Of a stretch of DNA of 43,367 nt, positions 1-43,367 are shown piece after piece (position 1 is the first letter of the stretch; each line of letters begins with the position of its first letter). Both the position numbers and the translations under genes were made by a program. Below the pieces are notes generated by a model. The model did no database searches, was not told the DNA's origin, and saw only the letters and a program-made list of their open reading frames with translations. This stretch comes from a virus, in the IMG/VR virus record IMGVR_UViG_3300009093_001230, positions 1-43,367 of that record; one strand, 5' to 3'.

Positions 1-3000
1 CTACTTGCGGACGAACTGCTCTGAAGCCTGTTTCACTCCTGCCAGGGTCGCATCCCGCTCGCTCGCGGTCATCCCATTGTCCTTCCCATCTCGGAGATAC
101 TGCTCTGCGGGACGATAGATGCTCTGGTACCACGCTTTCAACTCTTGGAAGCGTGTCGTCTGCTCATCCGTCCGGAACTTGTCGCCCAGGCGCTGCAGTG
201 TCCCGTATTCCATTGCGAGGCGTTGCGCGTTGGCCGGCATGTCGAGCTTCAGCCTGGCTGCCGCCTGTTGCTCCAAGGTCATCGCCGCGACCTGTTGTTC
301 GTGATAGCCGGCGTCCGTGATCTTCACCATCCCATTGATCATCGGAAGATTCTTGAGCTGCTCCGTGGTCATGCCTGTCTGCGGATCGAAACTTACGAAG
401 TTGCTCATTCCGGTCTGTCCATACGTCCAGGTCAGCATCGGCTTCACCCCATCCCATCCGCCGGCGAGAAACTGTGCATCACTGAGCACGAACTTGCCGC
501 GGAAGTCATCGAGCGGATTCTGTCCCTGCAGGTAGGTCTTCCAGCCGCTGGCCATCTTGATCATCGGATTCAATCCGGGCACGTCGCTGTCGATCTCCGC
601 CAGATTGTGCTGCAGCATAGTGCCGACGCCCGTACCATCCGGCGGATTCATTTGCTGCAGCTCGGTGCCGAGTAGCCCGTGCTGTGCGGCGAGCGTCCCT
701 TCCGTCTTTAGTGCGTTGTAGAAGATGCCAGAGATGATCCTATCCACCGGATCCTTGGGGATCGGGATGAATACCACCTTCGGCCCATAATCGCCCTGGC
801 CGGTCGTGCCCAGCGGGATGACATCGTAGTTCGCCTTGTAGTGGTCCGAAATGCCGTCGTAGAGCTTCTTGATTGCTGCCCCGAGAAGTCCGATCGATCC
901 CGCTACTTTCAGCACCGTCCACACGCCGTTTGTCATTGCCCAGCGAAACCACCATGCCGCCGGCGACGTTGCTCGCTTGCCTGGCTGATCGGTTCGCTGA
1001 AATCCTTTAAGGGCGAGCTGCATGTCTGCCTGCCAGCCGCGCATCCAGATGTTCACGAAGGGAAACACCGGATTCACCAGTGAGATATGTTTGCCGCGTT
1101 TGTTGTAGTTCGGCGTCCCGATGAAATTGCGGACGTAATAAGCAGCCTCTTGCGGTGACCAGCCGAGACGCTCCCTCAGGACCTTGTAAATGCTCGCCTT
1201 GGGCACGATCTCATTGATGCGCCCGGCCATCTGGACCGACTTCAGGACCTTTGCGACAAAGTTCGGCACGATCTTTTCGATCCATGTCTCGTGACCTCCT
1301 TCCTCCGGCAATACCTTCACCTTCTGCAGCAGCCTATCGAAGGAAGTCGACGGACGGGCCGGCGTGACATCAAACATCGCGTCGCCTGGAGTGATCGCGA
1401 GGTTATCCAGCATTTCGGCAATGAGCGGCTGTTGCTTGCCTCGCTTCACAAAGTCACGCGCTGCGTCCAGGACCGGATTGGGGCCGATGCTCTTAATGAG
1501 CGGCATCTGACGCGCGATGTCCCAGAAGCCAACGCCAACCGGCGCGTTCACGAAGTTTCGGCGCACGTTCCGCATCGGGTGACGGAAGAACTGGAACACC
1601 GGATTGAACTCGATGAAAAGCGGATGGAAGAATTTGCGGAAAGGCGTGTTCAGGATGCTCAGTGCGGCGTCGAGGAGCGGGATGTCCGGACGATCGAACA
1701 TGTAGGCAATTTCCTTCGGCACGTTGTACCAGGCTGGCTTTCCCGCTTCGCGCACCATGATCTGCTCCACGCCTTTCTCGCGCGGCTGCCGTGGCGTTTC
1801 CCGGCCGTTTCCGTCCCGCACCGTTTCCGCGCGCTGGATCTCCGCTGGCCAGTCGCGCTGCAGGATCCTGACCGTGGTCGCCTTGAGCCTCTGATGCTGG
1901 GTCGCACGCATCAGCGTCAGCACCTTTGAGACGGTCGAGACAAATGGATTCTGGATCTCTTTTAGCGTCCCGGCCTGTCCCTGCAGTCCTGCCGGCAGAA
2001 AGATGTCCACGTACTCGAGCGGCGTGAAGGTCGCATAATTGTCACGATTGTGCCCGATCAGCGCCATCTGCTCGTTGGTAAACATTCCTTCCTGATGCGC
2101 ATCCTTCATCACATCATAGACGAGATCGTGAAAGCGCTGTACCGCCGAGTCCAGGAGTGTCTGCGCTCGCACTCCGTTCTCCAGCCTCTCCGACAGCAAC
2201 TGCAGCCGTGCGGTCTGGGGCGTGTGTCCTTGCGGGTTCGCGATCACACTTCGTCCGCCCGTGGTCATGCCGAGCTGCTCCGCGATGCGCCCCGAGATCG
2301 GGTAGCTCTCGTTGGCGATGCGCTTGAAGAAGAGCTGACGGCCGATGTCATCCATCGAGAAACCGGATGCCTGCGCGGGTTCGATCACCGTACGCTGCAT
2401 GCGTTCCAGCCAGCGATAAAGCTGATTGTCCGCCAGCGGGTGCTCATCGAAGAGGAAGCGGGCTGCATCGTTCACGCGCCCGGTGCCGGCGGCGTCCTCC
2501 CGATCGAGAAGAGGGGAGAAGTTATCGAAGAATGCCTGCTTTAGCATCGAGAGCCATCCAGAGAATCCCTTGTACCGCTCTTCGCGTTCCTTCCACTTCG
2601 TCTCGAAGATGTCCTGGGCTTTGGCGAACATCTCGTCTGCCTTGGTGGCGCGATCCTTCAGGATCTGCATTGCCGGGCGGCTCAGCCACTTTTGCATCTC
2701 AAAGAATTGCGTCTTTACCTCGGGCTTAGTATCGAGTCCGCGGAAGAATTCCCGGTAGAACTTCGGTGCCATCTGTTTCAACGTCGCCGGCGAGTTGAAG
2801 AGCACGCTCAGCGCATCCGCGTACAGCTCGGCCGCGCTCTCGCGGTACTGCACGTAACCCTTTGGATCCGTTGCCGGATCATATGGTTTCCAGTACTTGC
2901 TCAAGCCGATTAACTCGGCGCGCATGTCGTTGTTTGAGATCGCTGCAGCCCCGAACCGGTCCTTCGCGTATTTGGTGAGGGAGGATATCCACCCATGCAG

Positions 3001-6000
3001 GTTGCCGCGCTTCATCACCTTATCCGGCAGCCATCCGACCAGGTGTCCGATCTCATGTCCCAACGTCTTCGCTGCACTCACGGGATCCGAGAAAATCCGG
3101 GGATCCAGCCGGATCCGTCCATTGCCGAGGGCGGCGAATTGTCCCCGCGCTTTGCTCATTCGCTTCAACTCAGGCAATTGACCCATCAGCTCACGAGCGA
3201 GCTGCACGAGTTCCGGCATCTGGACGATCTTGATATCGTTCAGACCTTTCAGCGGGACCGACGCATAAGGATTCCCTTTGTCGTCCACTGCCTGCACGGG
3301 CGAGTATCCTTCGGGCTCTTCACGCAAGCTCTGCCGATCGGTGGCAGCGTCCACCACGTACCTCGCGTGCTTCTCCAGAAAACCCGCCGCTGCCGCGCTT
3401 GGCAGGCTCGGCCATGATCCGTCGATCACTCGTGGTCCGCCGCTCAAGAGATCTTTGAGCGCGGTGAGTTGGCTCAGGATATCCAGGGGCTTCGCGTCCT
3501 GCGGGAATGAGACCGCGATCCCGTACGCTCCTTCCCGCGCCGCGCTGTTTCGGAGGGCGCCGGCCAATTGCGCCAGAGTGAGGTTCGCCGGCTGACGCTC
3601 GATCGCAGTGAGAGTTAGTTTGGTCGTGAGGTACGCCACATGCACTGCGTCGGGATCGCCGGTCCGGAGCGTTTGGACCAGTTGCCGCAGATCGCGATTG
3701 GAACCGGTTTTCAGCAATTCATTTCGCGACACCATTTCCCACGGCGCCGGCTCTGCGGCAAAGGTGCCCTCGCCACCGCGCCGCAGGGAGAAATACCGGC
3801 CATGGTTGGTGATCACGTGGTCCGTCATGTTGTACCCCGCCTGCTTCAGCGCGTCTTGAATCAGATTAGTGATCTTGTGATCGGCGGCGCTGGGCGTCGG
3901 ATCGCCGCTCGGGTGGTTGTGCGAAATGATCACATCCTTTCCGATCCCGCTGCTGCGCTGCATAAAGCGGATGATTTCCTGCGCGGATGCCACGCTCTCG
4001 TTTAGCGCGCCAACATGCAGGATCTCCGAGGCTTCGATTTGTCCATTGTTCAGCTTCAGCACCCGCAAGACTTCCTTATAAGGATTGCGCAGGATGCCCT
4101 GGAAGAGCCGCGCCACATCTTCCGCGGTTGCCACCTTTGCCCCGCGAAGGCTGACCCCTAGTTGTGGCTCCTGGACAAGATTCGCGGCGATCGATGAGAT
4201 CGTCTGCCCTTCGGTGAAGGCCTTCCGGATCTCCTCCGGCTTTGCCGTGCCTGCCGCTATCTTTCGGAGGACTTCGGCTCGCTGCTTGGCGGTGCTGGCA
4301 CCGGCACTGGCTTGTCCGCTGGTGGGTAGATAGTATCCGGTAGCCTCAGACCCTCCTCCGCTTCCTCCCGGGGCAGATACAGACCCTCCTCGCCCGGTTG
4401 ATACACCACTTCCGGTGTTTCCGAGTGGGAGGTCGAGCTGTCCATGGGCGGTAAGATTATCCAGATTTCGCTGCCGGGCAACGAAATCTGTTTGCTTGTC
4501 GGGATTGGTGACTTGTTTGGTATCGAGGTAGGCAGCATCCGCCCCGGGCGTCGAGCCTGGCTGCAGAGAAGCGTTCATGCGCATCATCAGTGCTGGCGAT
4601 TCGCCCTGGCGCGCGATCACACCCCATGCCCTCACGCGATCGGAGGAAAGACTCCAATCACCCGTGGCGAGCGCCACGATATCGCCGGCATGATACATGC
4701 CCATCACCAGCGCCTTAGACTGATGGTCCAGCGGAAATCCGGCCGCCTCGAGTACGTCGGCGATGCGCACGGCAGGAAAGCCGAAGTCCTTCACTTGCCG
4801 CTGATACGCCTCGATGATCTTACTGCGCTGCTCCGCTGTCGGAGTTTGCGCCGGAGTCACCGTCTTGCTCGCAATAACTCGATCTGCCGCCTGCTTATAT
4901 TCATCCTCCGTTTCCTCCACGACCATGCGATGCGCGATCTGCACATGATTCAAGTCGAAGACAACAGCCTCCGAGTTGGGTGGAGTTTGCCACGAGACAC
5001 GTACGCCTTCCCACCCCTGCTGTTGTAAGATCTGGGTAGCGAGGCGCGACCGTTCCCTCAACTTTTCCTGGTCCCATTCGCTTACACTCATACCCGGAGG
5101 TCTTCTGGGCGCCGAATAATTGATCGCTGCGTCTTCGTCATCCCCTACCGCCGAACGATTAACCATGTTCCCGTTCTCGTCGAACACCTGCCACACTTTG
5201 ATCGTCTTACTCGTATCTGGATAACCAGCCATTTCCTGTTTCAGCTTCGCCGTCCATCCCTTTGGTATGAGCACGCGATCTCCAAGTATTTCTCCCGCGA
5301 GCTTCCAGGCTGCATTCCACTCTTCGCGACCTGCAAATTTTCGTGCCGATACTCGCACTCGGTACACATTTCCGCCCTTGCCGGCATAGGTCTGCGCACG
5401 CCATTGACGATTTGTGAGGTAGACACCATTTCCGAAATATCCGTAGTCACTCTTCTGCGTATGCTCGAAGCGCTGGAATGTTAGTGGGCTGCCGTGAAAC
5501 CACTCTTCACCTTCGTCTTCCGGCTCTTCCTTCACCACCTCCGGCTCTTTCGGTAAATCACTAAATAACGCCGAACCAGGCTGCAGCGCGGATTGCAACG
5601 TGTCCATGATGCTCCGCTTCTCTCCGAAGAGATCCGGCGCATCCTGATGCTGTTGCACCGCCCGATTGACCCGCGCGAAGGTCTCCCGCGCATTCTCCAG
5701 CGTCGGCTCTGTCTGCAATCGTCCCGCGCTATCGGTCACCACGGCGCCACGCAGCGCCGCGGCGACCGCTTGCGCCGGCGCATGCGCGGGATCCAGCTCG
5801 CTCTGTGCGGCGACGGTATCCAGCGCTTGCGGCAACTTATCGACGCCCTGGTTCTTCGTGACATCGAGCGTCGTCGTAAAGGTCCGAGCGATCGCATTGG
5901 CGATGTCATTCGCACCCTTCTGCCGAAGTGAAATCAAGGCTGGCGTGGCTGCATCGATCAGCCCGCGCATAGGTCCATTTGCTGCACGGCTATCACCACG

Positions 6001-8259
6001 CGCTTCCGCGATCGCCGGTTGCTGAAAGGCGGCATTCACCAGGAGCCGCTGCACATAGTCCTGGCTCTGCGACGGACTCGCTGCAGTGCCGGCCAGCCGA
6101 TTGCGATCGACAGTTCCGCTGCTGATCAGCTGCCGCACGAAGCCTTGTGCCTCCTGCGGTGCAATGTCCATGTTCACGTTCGCGAGCTGATCGATCGGCA
6201 CCGTTGCGGCGTCGACCTCCGCGCGTTTTGCCGTGGATTGCACCATTCCAGGCGACGGATTGAGCGCATCCACCATGCTCTGCAGCCGCGCCTGGTCGCC
6301 GGACTTGCGGAAGTCAAAGGTCCCAAGGTAGCGCACGATCTGGCTGTCTGCGTCTGGCGCCGGCTGCAGTCCGAAGTTGCTCGCCTTCGTGTTACTGTAA
6401 TCAAGCGTCGCCTGCCGTTGGTCCGGCGAAAGATTTTGCATCGCCCATTGCCGATTGTTTCCACCCACCACCGCCAGCGTGGCGTTCCCGTCTCCATTGA
6501 TCACGCGCGCGACCATGGGCGGACCGACCGCCGCGTCCGGACTGTCAGTGACTGCTCGACGTGGATCCCAGCTATTGCGTGTGGCGAGCGCCTTGTCCTT
6601 CTCCGCCTGGTCTCCGTAATCCCGCGTGTTCGTGAGTGGGTAGTCAGGATTCGCTGCAAGTGTCTCCCCGGTATGTGACGGCTGAATCATCGCTTGAGGA
6701 GCCCATGCATAACTTGCTGGATACTCTTCGCCCTTCGCTCCGATCACCACGGTCGGCGCGCCGCGCTTCACGCTGTCTTGCGTGACAAGTTGTGATTCGA
6801 ATTGTTCCTGGCTATCGCTTGGCGGTTCGGTTGGCGGGGGAGTGCCGGCCTCTGCACCAGGTTCACCTGTGGGCAAGCCCGTTGGTCCGTTCGGTGCCTT
6901 CGCGCCTTTGAGCGTGACCTTCACCGCTCCGAGCGGTGCTTCGCCTCCTTTCTCATGGCCGACGACTTCCGTGTCGCCCGCTTTGCCGCGTCCTTTGCCG
7001 ACCATCTGTTCCGCCGAAACATCAAATTGTGCCGGATCCAAAGTCTGCCCGCTTTGCAGCACGCCCTGGAACTTATCCTTCATCGCATCGAAGACCTCAC
7101 GCTCAGCCGGACGAAGGACATCGCGCGGATCCAATCCCTGCGCCGCCGCATTGGCGCCACGCGTCCAGATCTCCGCGAGTTGATCGGAAGAATAGTTCTT
7201 CGATTTGAGCCCGAGTCCGGACATCGCCACGCCCAGCGCGCCGCCTAGGACCAAGCCCATCGGACTCATCTTCGCGTCCGGATCCGACAGCTTATCCAGT
7301 GCTTGCGCGCCGGCCGCTCCCGCGACGCCGGCCACTGCCGGCTTGGCGAGGAATGCAGTAGCCGCCATTGCGCCCTTTGTCTCCTGGACCAGCTTCGCCG
7401 CCTGCAGCGCCTTCGCAAGGCCGAATGGCGCCGGGATCACCATGGTTGCCAGATCGCCGCTCGTGTAGGCTAGGGGATGCAATTGGCGCGCCGCCTGCAT
7501 GGATTGCGGGAGGATTGCATCATACACCTCGCCCGCGGTTGAGCCTGCGGCGACAGATGCCGCCGGGACAAGAGCGAGTGAAGTAAAGGCGCTCTCCGGA
7601 GCCGTAGCTGCGACCGCTGATCCCGTTGCCGCGCCGGCGCCAAGCGTTACGAGCCCACGCCCCAGTCCCGCGATTGTTGCGTTCGCCATTGCGTCTGGCC
7701 CGGCTTGCTGCCGCAACGTGCGTTCGGTCTGCGCCGCCTGCTGCACGAGATAGGCAGAGTGCATGCGGTTGTCGTAGTCCTCTGGCGAGATCACACCTGC
7801 CGCCAGGGCATTCTTGAGCGCTGCAGGATACCGCGTCGGATCGAGAAACACCTGTCCTGCTTCGATCCGCATCGGTGGTTCATTACTGTCAAATTCGCGC
7901 GGCTGCAGTGGCGTCCAGCGTGGAGGCAGTGATGGCTCACGGCTCATCACGTCCGCCGTGGTCGGCGTCTTTGGCGCGGACTGTAGGGCCTGCGCATCCG
8001 GTAATCTCCGCTCCAGCTCATCATTCGAGATCCATCCCGCCGCGTGCAGATCCTGCAGCGCATCAGCCGGTCGCGCGGGATCCATCAGGATCTTACCATC
8101 CTGCAGCTTGAAAGCCGCTTTGGGCAAGTCCCCAAAGAGCGAGCCGGACGGCTGTGCTTGTGGAGCCGGTGAAGGCGTTGGTGCGGGTGTGTCCTGTGGT
8201 ACATCGGCAAACGGCGCCGCCACCGGACCGTCCTTTGGAAGGTCGTCAAAGAGTCCCAT
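1..8259 (-). CDS. Giant polyvalent virion protein (2752 aa)
   Basis: Probably packaged in the virion and ejected with the genome; this role is inferred from the class of phage polyvalent proteins. Visible modules in order: two short repeats at about 50-90 and 130-165 (pattern G-x-hydrophobic-LDP...AL..AAG.IS...); a Gly/Ala-rich hydrophobic stretch at about 190-350; a ParB/DdrB-like region at about 510-880 containing GGNNRQWAMQNL; an ADP-ribosyltransferase-like module at about 915-1105 starting WFHGSPLTFQRFEHT; a RadC/JAB metalloprotease-like domain at about 1365-1495 with HNHPSGDPTPSAAD; a zincin motif HEIGH near 1733; then a long helical region with FNPVFQFFRHPMRNVRR near 2215-2240, typical of large polyvalent-associated domains. 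The motif LF-x-DLPK occurs at the N terminus, near residue 42 and near 893. It is the last gene of the leftward late operon and ends exactly at the window edge with TAG. The start is 12 bp after the preceding stop, with an AACC-rich leader and no clear Shine-Dalgarno. Confidence 0.85.
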   Translation of the reverse strand: MGLFDDLPKDGPVAAPFADVPQDTPAPTPSPAPQAQPSGSLFGDLPKAAFKLQDGKILMDPARPADALQDLHAAGWISNDELERRLPDAQALQSAPKTPTTADVMSREPSLPPRWTPLQPREFDSNEPPMRIEAGQVFLDPTRYPAALKNALAAGVISPEDYDNRMHSAYLVQQAAQTERTLRQQAGPDAMANATIAGLGRGLVTLGAGAATGSAVAATAPESAFTSLALVPAASVAAGSTAGEVYDAILPQSMQAARQLHPLAYTSGDLATMVIPAPFGLAKALQAAKLVQETKGAMAATAFLAKPAVAGVAGAAGAQALDKLSDPDAKMSPMGLVLGGALGVAMSGLGLKSKNYSSDQLAEIWTRGANAAAQGLDPRDVLRPAEREVFDAMKDKFQGVLQSGQTLDPAQFDVSAEQMVGKGRGKAGDTEVVGHEKGGEAPLGAVKVTLKGAKAPNGPTGLPTGEPGAEAGTPPPTEPPSDSQEQFESQLVTQDSVKRGAPTVVIGAKGEEYPASYAWAPQAMIQPSHTGETLAANPDYPLTNTRDYGDQAEKDKALATRNSWDPRRAVTDSPDAAVGPPMVARVINGDGNATLAVVGGNNRQWAMQNLSPDQRQATLDYSNTKASNFGLQPAPDADSQIVRYLGTFDFRKSGDQARLQSMVDALNPSPGMVQSTAKRAEVDAATVPIDQLANVNMDIAPQEAQGFVRQLISSGTVDRNRLAGTAASPSQSQDYVQRLLVNAAFQQPAIAEARGDSRAANGPMRGLIDAATPALISLRQKGANDIANAIARTFTTTLDVTKNQGVDKLPQALDTVAAQSELDPAHAPAQAVAAALRGAVVTDSAGRLQTEPTLENARETFARVNRAVQQHQDAPDLFGEKRSIMDTLQSALQPGSALFSDLPKEPEVVKEEPEDEGEEWFHGSPLTFQRFEHTQKSDYGYFGNGVYLTNRQWRAQTYAGKGGNVYRVRVSARKFAGREEWNAAWKLAGEILGDRVLIPKGWTAKLKQEMAGYPDTSKTIKVWQVFDENGNMVNRSAVGDDEDAAINYSAPRRPPGMSVSEWDQEKLRERSRLATQILQQQGWEGVRVSWQTPPNSEAVVFDLNHVQIAHRMVVEETEDEYKQAADRVIASKTVTPAQTPTAEQRSKIIEAYQRQVKDFGFPAVRIADVLEAAGFPLDHQSKALVMGMYHAGDIVALATGDWSLSSDRVRAWGVIARQGESPALMMRMNASLQPGSTPGADAAYLDTKQVTNPDKQTDFVARQRNLDNLTAHGQLDLPLGNTGSGVSTGRGGSVSAPGGSGGGSEATGYYLPTSGQASAGASTAKQRAEVLRKIAAGTAKPEEIRKAFTEGQTISSIAANLVQEPQLGVSLRGAKVATAEDVARLFQGILRNPYKEVLRVLKLNNGQIEASEILHVGALNESVASAQEIIRFMQRSSGIGKDVIISHNHPSGDPTPSAADHKITNLIQDALKQAGYNMTDHVITNHGRYFSLRRGGEGTFAAEPAPWEMVSRNELLKTGSNRDLRQLVQTLRTGDPDAVHVAYLTTKLTLTAIERQPANLTLAQLAGALRNSAAREGAYGIAVSFPQDAKPLDILSQLTALKDLLSGGPRVIDGSWPSLPSAAAAGFLEKHARYVVDAATDRQSLREEPEGYSPVQAVDDKGNPYASVPLKGLNDIKIVQMPELVQLARELMGQLPELKRMSKARGQFAALGNGRIRLDPRIFSDPVSAAKTLGHEIGHLVGWLPDKVMKRGNLHGWISSLTKYAKDRFGAAAISNNDMRAELIGLSKYWKPYDPATDPKGYVQYRESAAELYADALSVLFNSPATLKQMAPKFYREFFRGLDTKPEVKTQFFEMQKWLSRPAMQILKDRATKADEMFAKAQDIFETKWKEREERYKGFSGWLSMLKQAFFDNFSPLLDREDAAGTGRVNDAARFLFDEHPLADNQLYRWLERMQRTVIEPAQASGFSMDDIGRQLFFKRIANESYPISGRIAEQLGMTTGGRSVIANPQGHTPQTARLQLLSERLENGVRAQTLLDSAVQRFHDLVYDVMKDAHQEGMFTNEQMALIGHNRDNYATFTPLEYVDIFLPAGLQGQAGTLKEIQNPFVSTVSKVLTLMRATQHQRLKATTVRILQRDWPAEIQRAETVRDGNGRETPRQPREKGVEQIMVREAGKPAWYNVPKEIAYMFDRPDIPLLDAALSILNTPFRKFFHPLFIEFNPVFQFFRHPMRNVRRNFVNAPVGVGFWDIARQMPLIKSIGPNPVLDAARDFVKRGKQQPLIAEMLDNLAITPGDAMFDVTPARPSTSFDRLLQKVKVLPEEGGHETWIEKIVPNFVAKVLKSVQMAGRINEIVPKASIYKVLRERLGWSPQEAAYYVRNFIGTPNYNKRGKHISLVNPVFPFVNIWMRGWQADMQLALKGFQRTDQPGKRATSPAAWWFRWAMTNGVWTVLKVAGSIGLLGAAIKKLYDGISDHYKANYDVIPLGTTGQGDYGPKVVFIPIPKDPVDRIISGIFYNALKTEGTLAAQHGLLGTELQQMNPPDGTGVGTMLQHNLAEIDSDVPGLNPMIKMASGWKTYLQGQNPLDDFRGKFVLSDAQFLAGGWDGVKPMLTWTYGQTGMSNFVSFDPQTGMTTEQLKNLPMINGMVKITDAGYHEQQVAAMTLEQQAAARLKLDMPANAQRLAMEYGTLQRLGDKFRTDEQTTRFQELKAWYQSIYRPAEQYLRDGKDNGMTASERDATLAGVKQASEQFVRK

Positions 8260-29693: not shown

Positions 29694-30041
29694 CTAGCTT
29701 TGCACCTCCTTCACCTGTTGCTCGCACCACATTTCCCAGTGCGTCTGATCACGCATCTGCGCATCGGTGGGCTGGTTCGGCACGTAGCGGTATTCGGCAA
29801 TGCGCGAGCATCCGCCGGTGCGACGGCCCGTCTTCGGATCACGGCCATCCCAGAAACATGATCCGATCTGATCCGCCGGTGTCGCGCACTCGTAAGCATA
29901 CAACGTTTCGCTGGAAGCCGGCTCGTCTCCGATCTGGTCGAGCGCATCCCACTTCGCGCCATGGACCACGCGCAAGAAGCGCGGAGCCCGAGCAAGGCTC
30001 AATGTCAAATTCTGCGCCGGGCCGTCGATGAAGCTGATCAC
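29694..30041 (-). CDS. Conserved phage protein, function unknown (115 aa)
   Basis: Start taken as GTG 30041, which makes GTGA with the upstream stop and has AGGGGG about 7 bp upstream. Sequence begins (V)ISFIDGPAQNLTLSLARAPRF and continues LRVVHGAKWDALDQIGDEP, ETLYAYECATPA and a C-rich patch (GSCFWDGRDPKTGRRTGGCS). The motif L-x-R-A-P-x-F-L-R-V-V-x-x...W-D-A-L-D-Q recurs in phage early genes, function unknown. A longer ATG start upstream is in-frame but lies inside the DHH gene. Confidence 0.65.
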   Translation of the reverse strand: MISFIDGPAQNLTLSLARAPRFLRVVHGAKWDALDQIGDEPASSETLYAYECATPADQIGSCFWDGRDPKTGRRTGGCSRIAEYRYVPNQPTDAQMRDQTHWEMWCEQQVKEVQS

Positions 30042-31426
30042 GGTTGCACCCCCTTCCACGCATCGACACACGCCGGCCGCGCCGGCACTTTCACGTCCGG
30101 GTTATCGCTCGCGTTGAAGTGCACACACGTGCACCATTCTTCGACTTCCGACCGTTGTTCACCGGTCCAAGCTTCGATGACATCGAGCGGCACGTTCTCA
30201 CCGACTAACTCCAGCATGTCGCGGAGCGTCGTTGTGTCTGTGATCTCCGCTTGAAAGGTCTCCATTGCCCGGCGAATGATCGGATCCTTTTTGAACGCCG
30301 CTTCCCGCCGGTCCAGTCGATCAATCTCAGCAGCGATGAGAGCGCCCGCCTTCACCAAGTTACGGCGCGGATCCCGCGCTTGGAAGTACTCACGTTCCCA
30401 CGGCCAATCCTTGTGGAAGAAACACGGCGGCGATTGTTCCAATCCGTTCTTGATTTGCAGGGCAGCCGTCTCCGCATAGCACGCTGCCGCCTGCGCGATT
30501 GAGCCGTTCCGGTGGCCGTCATCATGTGCGGCGCTATATCCTTCCTCCTGGATCTGCCGCTGCCGCTCCCGAGTAATGGCAATGCAGCCGCCCTGCTCAA
30601 AGTCTCCGACGATGCTATGCAGCTCTTCCTCGAACCCGCACGCCTGCGGATGGCCACCGCCACCCAGTTCCTTGGCGATCACACTACAGTCGAAGTCCGG
30701 ACGGCTGCGCAGACTCCAGATCCGTTTGCCTTCCTGGTCGCGGTAGACGGCTACGAAGGGCGCATCCGGATGCTCTTCGAGCATCTGGTGGCACGTCTCG
30801 CTGTGGAATGCCGTGACGTTCGCGACCGGGACGGTATAACCGCCGACGGTATTCGTGAAGGCAAACGATGCCTGGACGCGCGCGATCTTCTCGATCTGCT
30901 GCAGCGCAACAAACCCGTCATGCATCAGCTTCGGAATGCTCTCCACCGCATGGGTAAAGGCGACGAAGTCCCGCGGCACGATCGAGAGCGCGGCATTGAT
31001 CTCGCGCGAGCTGGGCAATTGCCACTGCCACAGGTCGCGGTCCTGGACGTAGAGCAGGATTTCCGGGACGGCCTTATCCGGGAAGAAGTAGCGCCACGCG
31101 AGGACGGCGCCGCACTGCGAGGTATCGAAGTGCACACGGAGCGGGCAATCCACCTCCAATCCTGGCAATCCATCGAGCTCCGCTTTGGCCGTCGAATGGT
31201 GATCGAGTACGACCACATGATTCAGCATCGACAGACTCTCAAGAATGGTCCGCTTATAACTGAAATCGAGAATGAAGATGCGGCTTCCTTCCGTGATGGT
31301 GGCCGGGACCGGCTCGCCGTAGAATACGGGGATATAGGTCGCATCATCGCGGAAGAGCAGCCAGGCAACCCACGCGGCCGCAAAGCCGTCCGGACAATTG
31401 GCGTGATAGAGAACGTAAGTTTTCAT
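30038..31426 (-). CDS. DHH-family phosphoesterase fused to a phage-specific C-terminal domain (462 aa)
   Basis: Residues 1-275 are a DHH/DHHA1 phosphoesterase: HANCPDGFAAAW (D13), FILDFSYKR (D54), VVVLDHHSTA (75-77), VQDRDLW (D129), and GGGGHPQACGF (255-265). The family includes NrnA-type nucleases and enzymes that hydrolyse short oligonucleotides or cyclic dinucleotide breakdown products. From about 285 a different domain begins, RERQRQIQEEGYSAAHDDGH, with AQAAACYAETAALQ and RRNLVKAGALIAAEIDRLDR; I know this as a stand-alone phage domain of unknown function. The fusion is unusual. Start at ATG 31426 after the leader CCTAACCT. GTGA links it to the next gene. Confidence 0.8.
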   Translation of the reverse strand: MKTYVLYHANCPDGFAAAWVAWLLFRDDATYIPVFYGEPVPATITEGSRIFILDFSYKRTILESLSMLNHVVVLDHHSTAKAELDGLPGLEVDCPLRVHFDTSQCGAVLAWRYFFPDKAVPEILLYVQDRDLWQWQLPSSREINAALSIVPRDFVAFTHAVESIPKLMHDGFVALQQIEKIARVQASFAFTNTVGGYTVPVANVTAFHSETCHQMLEEHPDAPFVAVYRDQEGKRIWSLRSRPDFDCSVIAKELGGGGHPQACGFEEELHSIVGDFEQGGCIAITRERQRQIQEEGYSAAHDDGHRNGSIAQAAACYAETAALQIKNGLEQSPPCFFHKDWPWEREYFQARDPRRNLVKAGALIAAEIDRLDRREAAFKKDPIIRRAMETFQAEITDTTTLRDMLELVGENVPLDVIEAWTGEQRSEVEEWCTCVHFNASDNPDVKVPARPACVDAWKGVQP

Positions 31427-39603: not shown

Positions 39604-39825
39604 TTAGTCCTCCGCGACTTTGAGTTGTTCCTCTTCCACCACGCTGAATAGCTCCGGCTGTTTCGCGTTCGCTACCTCACGACGCAACCGCGACAGCTCC
39701 TTTTCGAGCTCCCGTTCTCGCTTCACCGCTTCCTCGGCCACGGCGATCTCCGGACCGATTCGCAGTCCGCGCAGCACGGTTACCTCGTGCTCCAGCACAA
39801 CGATTCGGGCTTCAGGTTGCGTCAT
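39604..39825 (-). CDS. Small coiled-coil protein, first gene of the leftward operon (73 aa)
   Basis: MTQPEARIVVLEHEVTVLRG then a charged helix with heptad spacing (KRERELEKELSRLRREVANA) and an acidic end. It is the first gene after the early leftward promoter, a place typical of Cro- or antiterminator-like proteins, but it has no recognisable DNA-binding motif. Start chosen at ATG 39825; two earlier in-frame ATGs would fall inside the promoter. Confidence 0.55.
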   Translation of the reverse strand: MTQPEARIVVLEHEVTVLRGLRIGPEIAVAEEAVKRERELEKELSRLRREVANAKQPELFSVVEEEQLKVAED

Positions 39826-39832
39826 GTGATAA

Positions 39833-39861
39833 GTTATTGCGTAACGCATCTTTTGAGGCAA
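39833..39861 (-). promoter_or_regulatory. Candidate early leftward promoter with operator
   Basis: On the minus strand TTGCCT (39856-39861) and AATAAC (39833-39838) are separated by 17 bp, each with four of six consensus bases. The palindrome TGCGT-A-ACGCA (39838-39848) lies between them, in the position where a repressor would block RNA polymerase. The next 80 bp up to the plus-strand repressor gene contain ATTGC-N8-GCAAT (39886-39903), a second likely operator. The host sigma preference is unknown, so boxes are tentative. Confidence 0.45.
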
Positions 39862-39885
39862 CAACTTTCTTGCGCGGAGCGTCAA

Positions 39886-39903
39886 ATTGCCGTACCACGC
39901 AAT
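39886..39903. promoter_or_regulatory. Operator-like inverted repeat ATTGC-N8-GCAAT
   Basis: Perfect five-base half-sites flank eight bases, ending 2 bp before the repressor ATG at 39906. The half-site ATTGC also occurs at 39836-39840 within the upstream promoter palindrome. It is well placed for autoregulation of the repressor. Confidence 0.4.
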
Positions 39904-39905
39904 CC

Positions 39906-40331
39906 ATGGCCTACGTCGCAGCAGCGCTAACTACAGTCCTTTCTGAGATCGATTGGACCCAACGCGATCTGGCGCAGCGCTGCGGTTTGCCGGCCAGCCA
40001 GATCAATCGGTACTGCCGTGGCGTGAATAAAATCCCGATCGACAGCGCCGAGAAGCTCATCCGGGCAATTCCAGAGGAACACCGCGCGACAATCCTGATT
40101 GCATACCTTCGCGACTGCATCCCTCCAGGCTTTGAAAACCTCGTCGAAGTCGCGTCCACAAGTCCACGGGTGAAAGAGGAGGGGATCGATGGCATCAAGC
40201 TCCCCAAAGGCATGGATGCCGAGCTGACTCGGATGATTGAATTGTTTGGCCAGCTCGGCATGCGACATACCCAGGTGCGCGATATGATGCGCAGCTTTCT
40301 TAAGATCGCCGCGCCGGAGCAGATGGCCTGA
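39906..40331 (+). CDS. CI/Cro-family HTH repressor without autoproteolysis domain (141 aa)
   Basis: Only one of two plus-strand genes. The HTH is at about 10-45: VLSEIDWTQRDLAQRCGLPA, SQINRYCRGVNKIPIDSAEK. The remaining 95 residues are helical (YLRDCIPPGFENLVEVAS, LTRMIELFGQLGMRHTQVRD, MMRSFLKIAAPEQMA) with no S24 peptidase-like Ser/Lys dyad, so RecA-induced self-cleavage is not expected. Divergent from the leftward early operon and separated by 80 bp with operators. The 3' end overlaps the convergent 177-aa gene by 32 bp. Start at ATG 39906; a longer reading would cross the promoter. Confidence 0.75.
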   Translation: MAYVAAALTTVLSEIDWTQRDLAQRCGLPASQINRYCRGVNKIPIDSAEKLIRAIPEEHRATILIAYLRDCIPPGFENLVEVASTSPRVKEEGIDGIKLPKGMDAELTRMIELFGQLGMRHTQVRDMMRSFLKIAAPEQMA

Positions 40332-40833
40332 CCTTCGCGTTACGGATGACCCGCGCCGCGACGGCATCCTGATCCAGCGCGGACAAGATAATCCGCGCCG
40401 CCTTCCGCGTGTCGCCTTCTTGGGCGCATTCCACGATCGCCGTCAGGTAATCACTCACAAGACTCTTCACCTCTTCTTTGCTCTCGGCACTCATCGGCTC
40501 GATCAATTGCGGGATTGGCGGCCATCCCAGCGCCGGCGCCATGTTCCGATATACTTGCTGCATCAGCGGCACAGGGAACGTCTGCAGCGTGCCGAGAAAA
40601 GGATCCGTTGCGGTCTGGTAGGGCAGGGCAAATGCCTTGGCGAGATTACCCACCATGTTGCCGAATTTGATCAAGCTCGGATAGCCCCACGGCTGTTGAT
40701 GCGGGATCCGGGCGAGGAATCCCGTGATCGATCGAAACTCCACGCCAACATCGGGCTGCAGAGTGGCTTCGGCGCCCTCTTCAATCGGTACTTCAGTGCT
40801 GTCAGGTTGCGGCTGATTTTCGGTGTCATTCAT
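40300..40833 (-). CDS. Gene with LexA-like box, convergent with the repressor (177 aa)
   Basis: Sequence MNDTENQPQPDSTEVPIEEG then FRSITGFLARIPHQQPWGYP, LAKAFALPYQTATDPFLGTL, QTFPVPLMQQVYRNMAPALG, and a helical C-terminal part (VKSLVSDYLTAIVECAQEGD) ending in basic residues. No recognised motif. Its start is 3 bp after a perfect TGTTC-N4-GAACA palindrome, and its 3' end overlaps the repressor's by 32 bp in the opposite direction. I infer it is LexA-repressed and could act as an antirepressor, or that its transcript interferes with repressor expression. Confidence 0.65.
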   Translation of the reverse strand: MNDTENQPQPDSTEVPIEEGAEATLQPDVGVEFRSITGFLARIPHQQPWGYPSLIKFGNMVGNLAKAFALPYQTATDPFLGTLQTFPVPLMQQVYRNMAPALGWPPIPQLIEPMSAESKEEVKSLVSDYLTAIVECAQEGDTRKAARIILSALDQDAVAARVIRNAKVRPSAPARRS

Positions 40834-40836
40834 ACA

Positions 40837-40850
40837 TGTTCAAGAGAACA
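40837..40850. promoter_or_regulatory. LexA-like box TGTTC-N4-GAACA, upstream of 177-aa gene
   Basis: TGTTC-AAGA-GAACA is a perfect palindrome with a 4-bp spacer, ending 3 bp before the minus-strand ATG at 40833. Read from memory, TGTTC-N4-GAACA is the LexA motif described for Verrucomicrobia. A TATAAG element (minus strand, 40883-40888) lies about 33 bp upstream; a matching -35 is not clear. Confidence 0.65.
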
Positions 40851-40887
40851 CTATTCGGTCTCACAACCAAGCACAATTCCGCCTTAT

Positions 40888-40938
40888 ACAGACAAATCAG
40901 TACGGACAAAATCCACGTCCCACGGACACCACTTGTCC
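40888..40938. repeat. ACGGACA direct repeats and GGACA-N5-TGTCC inverted repeat
   Basis: ACGGACA occurs at 40902-40908 and 40922-40928, exactly 20 bp apart, with a related ACAGACA at 40888-40894. The last copy also forms GGACA-CCACT-TGTCC (40924-40938), directly after the stop of the 78-aa membrane gene. It could be a regulator binding array or a weak terminator hairpin; no U-tract follows. Confidence 0.4.
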
Positions 40939-40942
40939 TATC

Positions 40943-41179
40943 CTATTCCTTCCGCAGAAAGTTGGCTGTCCAGGCCGCTCCCAGGATCAGTGCAAAGTCG
41001 ATAAAGACTGTCGCAGACATCGGAATATCAGGCACCGATCCCTCTCCAAATGGCACCTCGTACACACGCCGGCCGAAGATGTCGTAATTGTACCGCCCAT
41101 CGCTCGTTCTCACCATTCCCTCCACCACGAAGTACACGAAGAGCAGTCCCAGAATGATGTTGGATAGCGCCTTCCGCAT
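40943..41179 (-). CDS. Small two-transmembrane protein, lysogeny region (78 aa)
   Basis: MRKALSNIILGLLFVYFVVE is one hydrophobic segment (about 6-24), and SATVFIDFALILGAAWTANF near the C terminus is another (about 55-74). A polar, Tyr-rich loop (SDGRYNYDIFGRRVYEVPFG) lies between. Shares one base with the upstream lipoprotein stop (TGATG). Likely co-expressed with the lipoprotein from the prophage; superinfection exclusion is a guess. Confidence 0.6.
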   Translation of the reverse strand: MRKALSNIILGLLFVYFVVEGMVRTSDGRYNYDIFGRRVYEVPFGEGSVPDIPMSATVFIDFALILGAAWTANFLRKE

Positions 41180-41550
41180 CACAGATAGCGGATGAGCATT
41201 ACCTTCACTTTGGGACGCACCATCAGTTCGTCCTGGTCGACTCCGCTGATACGATTGCCGGCAGCCATCACAATCATCGCTTGGGCCCCGTGACTCGCCG
41301 CCGCTTTCGCGAGATCGTTCAGTACCGTGCCCTTCGTTGCGCGTGTTCCGCCTTCTTCCTCCATGAATCCGAGAACCCGGTAACGCCGCGGTGGATCCCC
41401 GTTTTCCCACACCTGCACGCCCTGGACCATTTGCACCGTCCCGCCAGTGCCGACGCGCACACTATTGCCAACGAAGGGCTGAAACTCCGGTTCGGCGCAA
41501 CTTGGCAGGCACATGGCCGCCGCGAGTAGGGGAATGGCGTACATCCTCAT
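41179..41550 (-). CDS. Predicted lipoprotein, lysogeny region (123 aa)
   Basis: The signal sequence MRMYAIPLLAAAMCLPSC ends in a lipobox L-P-S-C with the lipid-modified Cys at 18. The mature part (VGTGGTVQMVQGVQVWENGD, PRRYRVLGFMEEEGGTRATK, LAKAAASHGAQAMIVMAAGN) is a compact alpha-beta domain. A similar R-V-L-G-x...A-x-x-x-G-A-D/Q-A-x-I-V core occurs in small secreted or heavy-metal-binding-like bacterial proteins. Placed beside the integrase with the small membrane protein, it is a candidate lysogenic-conversion or surface-exclusion gene. The function is not known. Confidence 0.65.
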   Translation of the reverse strand: MRMYAIPLLAAAMCLPSCAEPEFQPFVGNSVRVGTGGTVQMVQGVQVWENGDPPRRYRVLGFMEEEGGTRATKGTVLNDLAKAAASHGAQAMIVMAAGNRISGVDQDELMVRPKVKVMLIRYL

Positions 41551-41598
41551 GCCCTCGCCTGTAGCAAAGGGCTGCCGCTATCGCAATCTCGGCTTGCG

Positions 41599-41633
41599 TG
41601 TTCTCGTGTTCCGAAACAGTGTTCACAAGAACA
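41599..41633. promoter_or_regulatory. LexA-like box TGTTC-N4-GAACA with extra half-sites, upstream of the 131-aa gene
   Basis: The perfect palindrome TGTTC-ACAA-GAACA occupies 41620-41633, ending 2 bp before the plus-strand ATG at 41636. Two further TGTTC half-sites lie at 41599-41603 and 41607-41611. The 85-bp gap also contains the upstream region of the divergent lipoprotein gene. The same motif precedes the 177-aa gene 0.8 kb away. Confidence 0.65.
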
Positions 41634-41635
41634 CG

Positions 41636-42031
41636 ATGCCAGACGATATGCACAAACGGATCAACCTCCTTGCTCAAGAGACCCGGCGTCTCTGGGAAAC
41701 TGTCGTAATCGCTCAGGAAATCTCCAAATCGCTGGGGAAGCCGCTCAATTGCCTGGGCGGCGCGGCGCGAGCCCAAGCCGCTGTCCGTGACGCCTACGCC
41801 CTCGTCCGCGAGTTCCTCGAGGAGTACGCAAACCAGGACCAGCTCATCCGCTACGTTTTCACCACGCGGAAGAGCTACCGCAAAGAGGTGCAATTTGATC
41901 ACACCAAAGAGCAGAGGCGTGTTGAGCTGTTCCTCACTCAGTCGTACATGGCCGCGCAGAAAATCGGCTTCTGCGGCGAGTATCGCCGCTGGCTCGATGT
42001 CGTGCGCTATCGTCCGAAACCGATGTGGTAG
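41636..42031 (+). CDS. Gene with LexA-like box beside the integrase (131 aa)
   Basis: MPDDMHKRINLLAQETRRLW, then VVIAQEISKSLGKPLNCLGG, AAVRDAYALVREFLEEYANQ and RRVELFLTQSYMAAQKIGFC, ending in a Trp/Arg-rich strand (GEYRRWLDVVRYRPKPMW). Mostly helical, soluble, unassigned. Convergent with the integrase (1 bp between stops). The LexA-like box directly before its ATG suggests SOS induction; an antirepressor or a prophage-induction gene is an inference. An earlier in-frame start would lie beyond the box. Confidence 0.65.
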   Translation: MPDDMHKRINLLAQETRRLWETVVIAQEISKSLGKPLNCLGGAARAQAAVRDAYALVREFLEEYANQDQLIRYVFTTRKSYRKEVQFDHTKEQRRVELFLTQSYMAAQKIGFCGEYRRWLDVVRYRPKPMW

Positions 42032-42032
42032 C

Positions 42033-43367
42033 CTACAGTCCGCAATCCCGGAATGTGATCGGCGCGATTGGGGCGTGGTCCGTCAGATAGTGCCGGCCGG
42101 CCACGGTCTTCGGCGCATGCCGGAGAAACCGCTCTGCGTATTCGTCTCCCTGTCGGCGTGCCACGATAGTCGCCGCCCATCTACGTAGCTCATAGGACGT
42201 CTTTGCATGTCCTTGCACCCACTGTCGGACGAAGTTGCCGTGATCACGATCAACAATCCACTCACGCTCTGTCTTTGTCCTGGCGGGAATGAGGAAATCC
42301 TCCGGATTCGCCGCCCCGCTATACCTCCGGATTTCGCGCCACACCGCAGGCGCGATCGGTACTTCTCCTGAGCTCTTCTTTGGGATCCATTCTGGTCGCG
42401 GTTTGATCACCATCGCTCCCGCGATCGCGCGCCTTTCCCCATTTGGCAGTGTGACCGTATCGCTTCGCTTTTCGAGCCATCCGAGGCGTGCATTCTCCGC
42501 TTCGTCATTACGTAACGCCAGATGGCGGAATAACAAATGAGCGACGTAGAGTGCCGGAAACTGGTCGCGCAGACAGAGGGCTGCCTGCGACATCTGCCAG
42601 ATCGATTCTGGCGCCATTCGCATGTGCTCGATCCGTGGATCCGCCAACGTCTCCGTCGTCAGGAATCCTTCGAGAAATCGGCTGAACTGCTTTTCCGGGG
42701 AAAGCTTCTGCCCATTTACCGACGGCTCTCCTGGAAGGGATAACCCGCGATAACATTTGAGCGCCGCATCGCAGAACATCGCCCTGGCGTTTCTCAATGC
42801 CGCGTTCGCGCCCCTGATTTTGCTATCTCGATCAACCAGGTCCGTCGCTTCCGTCACATATGCTGCGAAGAATTTCTCCACCAGCTCGCTCGTCAGTGCC
42901 GATGCACGCACTTCGTCCGCATCTCCAGGATACACCCGCCGCAACACACTGCGCAGAGCGCTCGTATAGCCGGCTGCGGTGCGATCCTTCATCTTCACGC
43001 TGAAACTCTGGATTTTCGTTTCGTAGGCCTCGATCAGCTCGCCGATCGTACACACGCTGCGTGCGGGACGCAGTCGCGACTGATCCAGTGCGTCCCATCG
43101 TCCTTCCATCGCCGCACGCAGCTTCAGCTTTGCCCCTTCGGCCGCGAATCCTTTGGTGTCCACGCCCAGTGATTGCAGGACCTGCCGGCCACCGATGTAA
43201 AACTTCACGTAGTAGGACTTCTGTCGCTTGCCGTGCTTCAAAGGTCGGAAGACTCTGGCCGTCTTTCCGGCGACCTGCACCTCGAAGAAGTCGTCCTCCC
43301 GATCCTCCGGCGTTTCGATCTTCTGATACAGCACACGAGGGGGCAGGGGCGTGTCTTGGGTGTCCAT
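42033..43367 (-). CDS. int: Tyrosine recombinase / phage integrase (444 aa)
   Basis: Catalyses site-specific integration and excision. The N-terminal region resembles an arm-binding strand domain (YYVKFYIGGRQVLQSLGV) and is followed by a core-binding helical domain. Catalytic residues in the C-terminal half: R286 (HLALRNDEAE), K330/331 (EWIPKKSSGE), box II TSYELRRWAAT with Y392 where the family usually has His and R395, H417 (FLRHAPKT), and the nucleophile Y427 (GRHYL). The His-to-Tyr change is unusual but tolerated in some family members. The start is at the window edge, so a longer protein upstream cannot be excluded. Confidence 0.85.
   Translation of the reverse strand: MDTQDTPLPPRVLYQKIETPEDREDDFFEVQVAGKTARVFRPLKHGKRQKSYYVKFYIGGRQVLQSLGVDTKGFAAEGAKLKLRAAMEGRWDALDQSRLRPARSVCTIGELIEAYETKIQSFSVKMKDRTAAGYTSALRSVLRRVYPGDADEVRASALTSELVEKFFAAYVTEATDLVDRDSKIRGANAALRNARAMFCDAALKCYRGLSLPGEPSVNGQKLSPEKQFSRFLEGFLTTETLADPRIEHMRMAPESIWQMSQAALCLRDQFPALYVAHLLFRHLALRNDEAENARLGWLEKRSDTVTLPNGERRAIAGAMVIKPRPEWIPKKSSGEVPIAPAVWREIRRYSGAANPEDFLIPARTKTEREWIVDRDHGNFVRQWVQGHAKTSYELRRWAATIVARRQGDEYAERFLRHAPKTVAGRHYLTDHAPIAPITFRDCGL

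Follow-up and report, generated by a model that had tools for sequence, protein, structure and literature searches.

Two LexA-type boxes in front of genes in the lysogeny region of a virus suggest a link between prophage induction and the SOS response in Verrucomicrobiota

A palindrome of the LexA type that immediately precedes a phage gene raises the question of whether the virus has placed part of its lysogenic switch under the control of its host. This question is posed by an IMG/VR virus record of 43,367 nucleotides, cut at gene ends without host flanks and referred to here in its entire length as the window, where two perfect copies of the motif TGTTC-N4-GAACA are found close to the genes of a repressor and an integrase. 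As answer we favor a scenario, to which we assign a probability of about 0.7, where the window represents a temperate phage that infects Verrucomicrobiota and exploits the SOS response of its host. Host LexA would repress two genes coding for proteins of 177 and 131 residues, and their release upon damage would lead to inactivation of the phage repressor, to excision, or to both. This estimate refers to the model as a whole, which includes the assignment of the host and assumes the LexA motif of the actual host.

Two palindromes and their neighborhood

Box 1 (TGTTCAAGAGAACA, 40837–40850) is located 3 bp upstream of the ATG at 40833 that starts the 177-residue gene on the minus strand, and box 2 (TGTTCACAAGAACA, 41620–41633) 2 bp upstream of the ATG at 41636 that starts the 131-residue gene on the plus strand. 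The boxes themselves are assigned to neither strand and both are intergenic. Their coordinates, their perfect symmetry and the distance of 2–3 bp to start codons on opposite strands are exactly as described in the original prediction, and its remark that no further copy was noticed on reading was borne out by a scan of the whole window, which detected these two perfect sites and no other. Variants with up to two mismatches occur at chance level (13 compared to 13.5 expected), and the window thus does not contain a family of weaker sites. When scored with a matrix built from lexA and SOS boxes of Verrucomicrobiota, which has a training range of about 15–25 bits, box 1 reaches 22.2 and box 2 20.7 bits, and the runner-up in the window, which resides within a coding region, 10.1 bits. 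A promoter scan revealed, as a point against our scenario, no sigma-70-like promoter near the boxes, and the promoter and terminator scans of the window gave nothing above chance.

Palindromes of this kind could have arisen randomly and be devoid of function. Single perfect matches do appear by chance inside the genes of large genomes, as illustrated by three Verrucomicrobiota genomes (G127, G179 and G124), where several perfect sites other than those at lexA fall into coding sequence and are chance matches. In the window, however, two copies within 43 kb, both intergenic and both at most 3 bp from a start codon, contrast with an expectation of 0.05 in shuffled windows, where two copies were reached in one out of 100 shuffles, and of 0.028 in a first-order Markov model, which assigns a probability of about 4e-4 to two or more sites. 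We thus regard coincidence as the least probable of all explanations considered.

The genes surrounding the boxes are arranged, from the right, in the order integrase, 131-residue gene, two small leftward genes, 177-residue gene, repressor and a long leftward operon. The tyrosine-type integrase (444 residues, 42033–43367, minus strand; phrog_1 integrase, E=9e-14) has its start codon at the last base of the window, and at the opposite edge the first base is part of the end of a 2752-residue gene. The 131-residue gene (41636–42031, plus strand) is oriented tail-to-tail with the integrase gene. The two small genes between the boxes (40943–41550, minus strand), which encode a protein of 78 residues with hydrophobic stretches and one of 123 residues with a lipoprotein-like signal, have neither a box of their own nor a family match in Pfam or PHROGs. 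The 177-residue gene (40300–40833, minus strand) overlaps at its 3' end by 32 bp with the 3' end of the gene of the repressor, a Cro/CI-type helix-turn-helix (HTH) protein of 141 residues (39906–40331, plus strand) that matches the PHROG transcriptional regulators and contains HTH_3 as sole domain (Pfam, E=5e-8). Divergent from the repressor gene is the first gene of the leftward operon (39604–39885, minus strand), which in the map of open reading frames extends to structural genes and whose PHROG annotations farther left include a helicase, replication initiation, a ParB-like protein, head proteins and packaging genes. The predicted placement of the boxes at lysogeny genes therefore holds for their neighborhood, as reflected in the presence of repressor and integrase, but not for the box genes themselves, which match no family.

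Two further observations concern distant parts of the window. The 2752-residue gene (1–8259, minus strand), a relative of which is present in a prophage of genome G164, combines a RadC-like JAB domain with a weak match to an ADP-ribosyltransferase (ART-PolyVal) and is of the polyvalent-protein kind. At 30038–31426 (minus strand), a DHH/DHHA1 phosphoesterase is fused to a second domain that is matched by several unnamed PHROGs.

The motif in Verrucomicrobiota genomes and their prophages

The motif TGTTC-N4-GAACA is reportedly the one that defines the LexA regulon of Verrucomicrobia. We searched 241 Verrucomicrobiota genomes for the LexA DNA-binding domain and examined 90 regions upstream of lexA. 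A perfect box is present in 13 of them, each from a different genome, and a box with a single mismatch at eight further loci. Every perfect box ends at most 27 bp from the start of the match to the LexA domain, in some cases 1–4 bp before the ATG. In three genomes (G179, G046 and G218) the upstream region reads TGTTC-N4-GAACACTATG and the box is found 2 bp from the ATG, a spacing that matches the one in the phage, and in a fourth (G135) lexA carries two boxes, one of which is identical in every letter to box 1. The motif extends to other SOS genes, with perfect sites in G215 near gene starts that include lexA, recA, dnaE2 and a radical-SAM gene of the PA0069 family, and boxes in G252 in front of lexA, recA, ssb, priA and a dnaE2-like gene, where recA and the dnaE2-like gene were assigned by visual resemblance to the proteins of G215. 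In both genomes a box also precedes an unnamed protein of 208–213 residues without family match (L229:690-1313 and L238:697-1335), possibly an accessory gene of SOS mutagenesis.

Among the 90 regions, many lexA promoters, including that of G164, carry other palindromes, and the Gram-positive-type GAAC-N4-GTTC was encountered in rare cases only; Verrucomicrobiota thus seem to hold several LexA motifs. A second type of palindrome, around TATAC/GTATA, is found in the lexA upstream regions L064, L074, L084, L094 and others, which stem from other Verrucomicrobiota genomes. The original prediction had assigned TGTTC-N4-GAACA to LexA of Verrucomicrobia, which is supported by the 13 lexA loci and the SOS genes of G215 and G252, although the motif marks just part of the phylum. 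By their sequence, as perfect palindromes with high matrix scores, and by their position at start codons, the phage boxes would qualify as LexA boxes of the Verrucomicrobiota type.

The motif had also been taken as a pointer to the phylum of the host, and in this respect the terminase provides independent information. In a scan of 84,980 species, its relatives were confined to two genomes, both of which are Verrucomicrobiota MAGs. Further relatives of the terminase were found in searches within Verrucomicrobiota, to which most of our searches for relatives were confined, and the scan of 84,980 species thus constitutes the sole unbiased evidence for the host phylum. Together with a gene-sharing prophage in the Verrucomicrobiota genome G164, it agrees with the proposed assignment. 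This prophage has the most genes in common with the window, among them terminase, portal and capsid, and its region contains no TGTTC box, while lexA of G164 carries a different palindrome, a single case which speaks against our model and is at the same time consistent with boxes that track the LexA of the host.

The exact 14-mer of box 2 recurs in two other Verrucomicrobiota prophages, both in genomes with a perfect box at lexA. In G215, it is located between the gene of a D12 methylase and a terminase-portal-capsid block. The copy in G227 lies at a distance of about 16 kb from a relative of the window's integrase (E=6e-23) and is adjoined by a RecT-like gene and a DnaB-like helicase. In a second element of G215, two small genes are preceded by a box at distances of 4 bp and 1 bp, respectively. 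The latter gene, next to an AAA gene of the primase/helicase type, weakly matches an excisionase family (E=5.5e-4). Also on the opposing side, a perfect box is absent from 34 viral records of distant relationship, a large part of them fragments. A scan of IMG/VR for GTGTTC-N4-GAACAC-N-ATG retrieved 44 stretches, most of which can be accounted for by chance. Among viral records, two contain multiple copies of TGTTC-N4-GAACA near AAA-type genes (L160 at 2305 and 6053, L173 at 2480, 3409 and 8743); we rejected them as comparable cases since the setting of the copies resembles repeats and does not clearly place them at the start of genes, and these copies look unrelated to SOS.

The same comparisons bear on the idea that the boxes serve the HTH repressor of the phage itself as operators, in which case their likeness to a LexA motif would reflect convergence. 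Their location within the immunity region, one of them near the repressor gene, would be compatible with such a role. However, the gap that separates the lytic operon from the divergent repressor gene (around 39830–39905), where a phage repressor would be expected to act, holds no perfect copy but the imperfect palindrome TTGCGTAACGCAT (39837–39849), and both boxes exactly match boxes of lexA promoters or prophages in other genomes. We thus consider an operator function for the phage repressor highly improbable. The TTGCGTAACGCAT palindrome, whose count is not above chance, is a possible candidate for the operator of this repressor.

The box genes and a proposed route to induction

Read in frame, both box genes use codons in a coding-like manner. 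Since this is not the case for an upstream extension (41513–41635) and an 83-residue open reading frame across box 1, the ATGs adjacent to the boxes are likely the actual starts. Neither Pfam nor PHROGs nor NCBIfam yielded a match for the 177-residue protein, and in the same collections nothing meaningful was found for the 131-residue protein. Weak and short matches of the former in G092 and G172 (E of about 3e-4) were set aside. Searches of viral records detected no relatives of either protein, of the integrase or of the repressor, and our searches overall no usable relative of the two box-gene products. AlphaFold models were too poor for a fold search, with a pLDDT of 44 for the 177-residue protein, which makes its model unusable, and of 51 for the 131-residue protein, which is mostly helical by prediction at low confidence. 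Given neither usable relatives nor a confident fold, the roles of both proteins, as candidate antirepressor and candidate excision or induction factor, are a guess.

A constraint on these roles is provided by the repressor. An S24 peptidase domain was not detected anywhere in the window, while control genomes gave positives, and direct RecA-triggered cleavage of the 141-residue protein is thus not expected. DNA damage would consequently have to act via LexA, and one of the box-gene products probably inactivates the repressor, as in the Gifsy prophages. We infer the binding of LexA, the derepression and the involvement of both proteins in the following sequence of events. In the lysogen, host LexA bound to both boxes would keep the two genes silent and, given the location of the boxes at the start codons, probably cover the start of transcription. 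Upon DNA damage, RecA would trigger the cleavage of LexA and thus permit expression of both genes, whose products may inactivate the HTH repressor, assist excision or both, the latter being conceivable for the 131-residue protein as neighbor of the integrase. Once the repressor is disarmed, the leftward lytic operon would be expressed. Moreover, a leftward transcript originating at box 1 would cross the repressor gene in antisense direction into this operon, and our scan, which provides weak evidence, found no leftward terminator in between. It is tempting to combine these features in a stronger proposal, where the box genes are a new, unrelated pair, one acting against the repressor and the other in favor of excision, and where antisense readthrough from box 1 would add to their effect, so that the release of LexA both disarms and bypasses the repressor, but in this complete form we consider it doubtful.

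Host LexA could equally bind both boxes if the two genes were SOS-induced cargo that serves host takeover or survival, in which case the repressor would be inactivated by another route. The box genes belong to no known family and the two small genes between them resemble accessory genes in the gene map, as would be expected for cargo. Conversely, the box genes directly flank repressor and integrase, the window does not encode a self-cleaving S24 repressor as alternative SOS route, and a box precedes the excisionase-like gene in another Verrucomicrobiota element. We thus judge a cargo function as unlikely and prefer a role of the box genes in induction.

LexA-controlled induction as such is a known strategy, and its realization with TGTTC-N4-GAACA in Verrucomicrobiota is most likely new, as a literature search, with most subscription journals outside its scope, did not retrieve any account of prophages with LexA boxes in these bacteria. 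The proposed mechanism would tie prophage induction in a poorly studied phylum to the SOS response via a readable promoter motif, and the box genes provide a pair of candidates for induction factors, of no known family, that can be tested. A scan of lysogeny regions for a LexA box of the host type that is just a few bp away from an ATG may predict SOS-inducible prophages and their hosts.

Relation to known LexA-controlled systems

With the LexA regulon of Verrucomicrobia, the window shares the motif TGTTC-N4-GAACA, confirmed here at promoters of lexA, recA and dnaE2, but it would represent a phage-borne extension of this regulon. A direct action of host LexA on a phage promoter, here predicted, has been outlined for the Bacillus phage GIL01, where LexA directly represses transcription (PMC4551915), whereas the window contains a gene for a phage HTH repressor and no box at the start of its lytic operon. 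A closer parallel is found in the LexA-controlled antirepressors Tum of coliphage 186 and AntC of N15, as cited in PMC3121763, which similarly place a host LexA box before a phage gene whose product is expected to lift repression. In contrast to these phages, the window contains two separate box genes, one on either strand, and for neither product was a relation to a known family detected.

The Gifsy prophages of Salmonella encode repressors of 136 residues that are not cleaved and antirepressors, such as GfoA and GfhA, whose genes are controlled by LexA (PMC3121763). Their small repressor without cleavage domain, compared to 141 residues in the window, and a LexA-type box on genes outside the core immunity region are features found in both systems, which differ in phylum and LexA motif and in that no family in common with an antirepressor was detected for the box genes of the window, which are candidates for this activity. 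The two properties that characterize prophages of the Gifsy, 186 and N15 kind, a repressor without S24 domain and a LexA box before a gene outside the core repressor and lytic promoter, are both found in the window, and by mechanism the phage would resemble the enterobacterial prophages whose antirepressors are controlled by LexA, with an antirepressor activity that is assigned by analogy.
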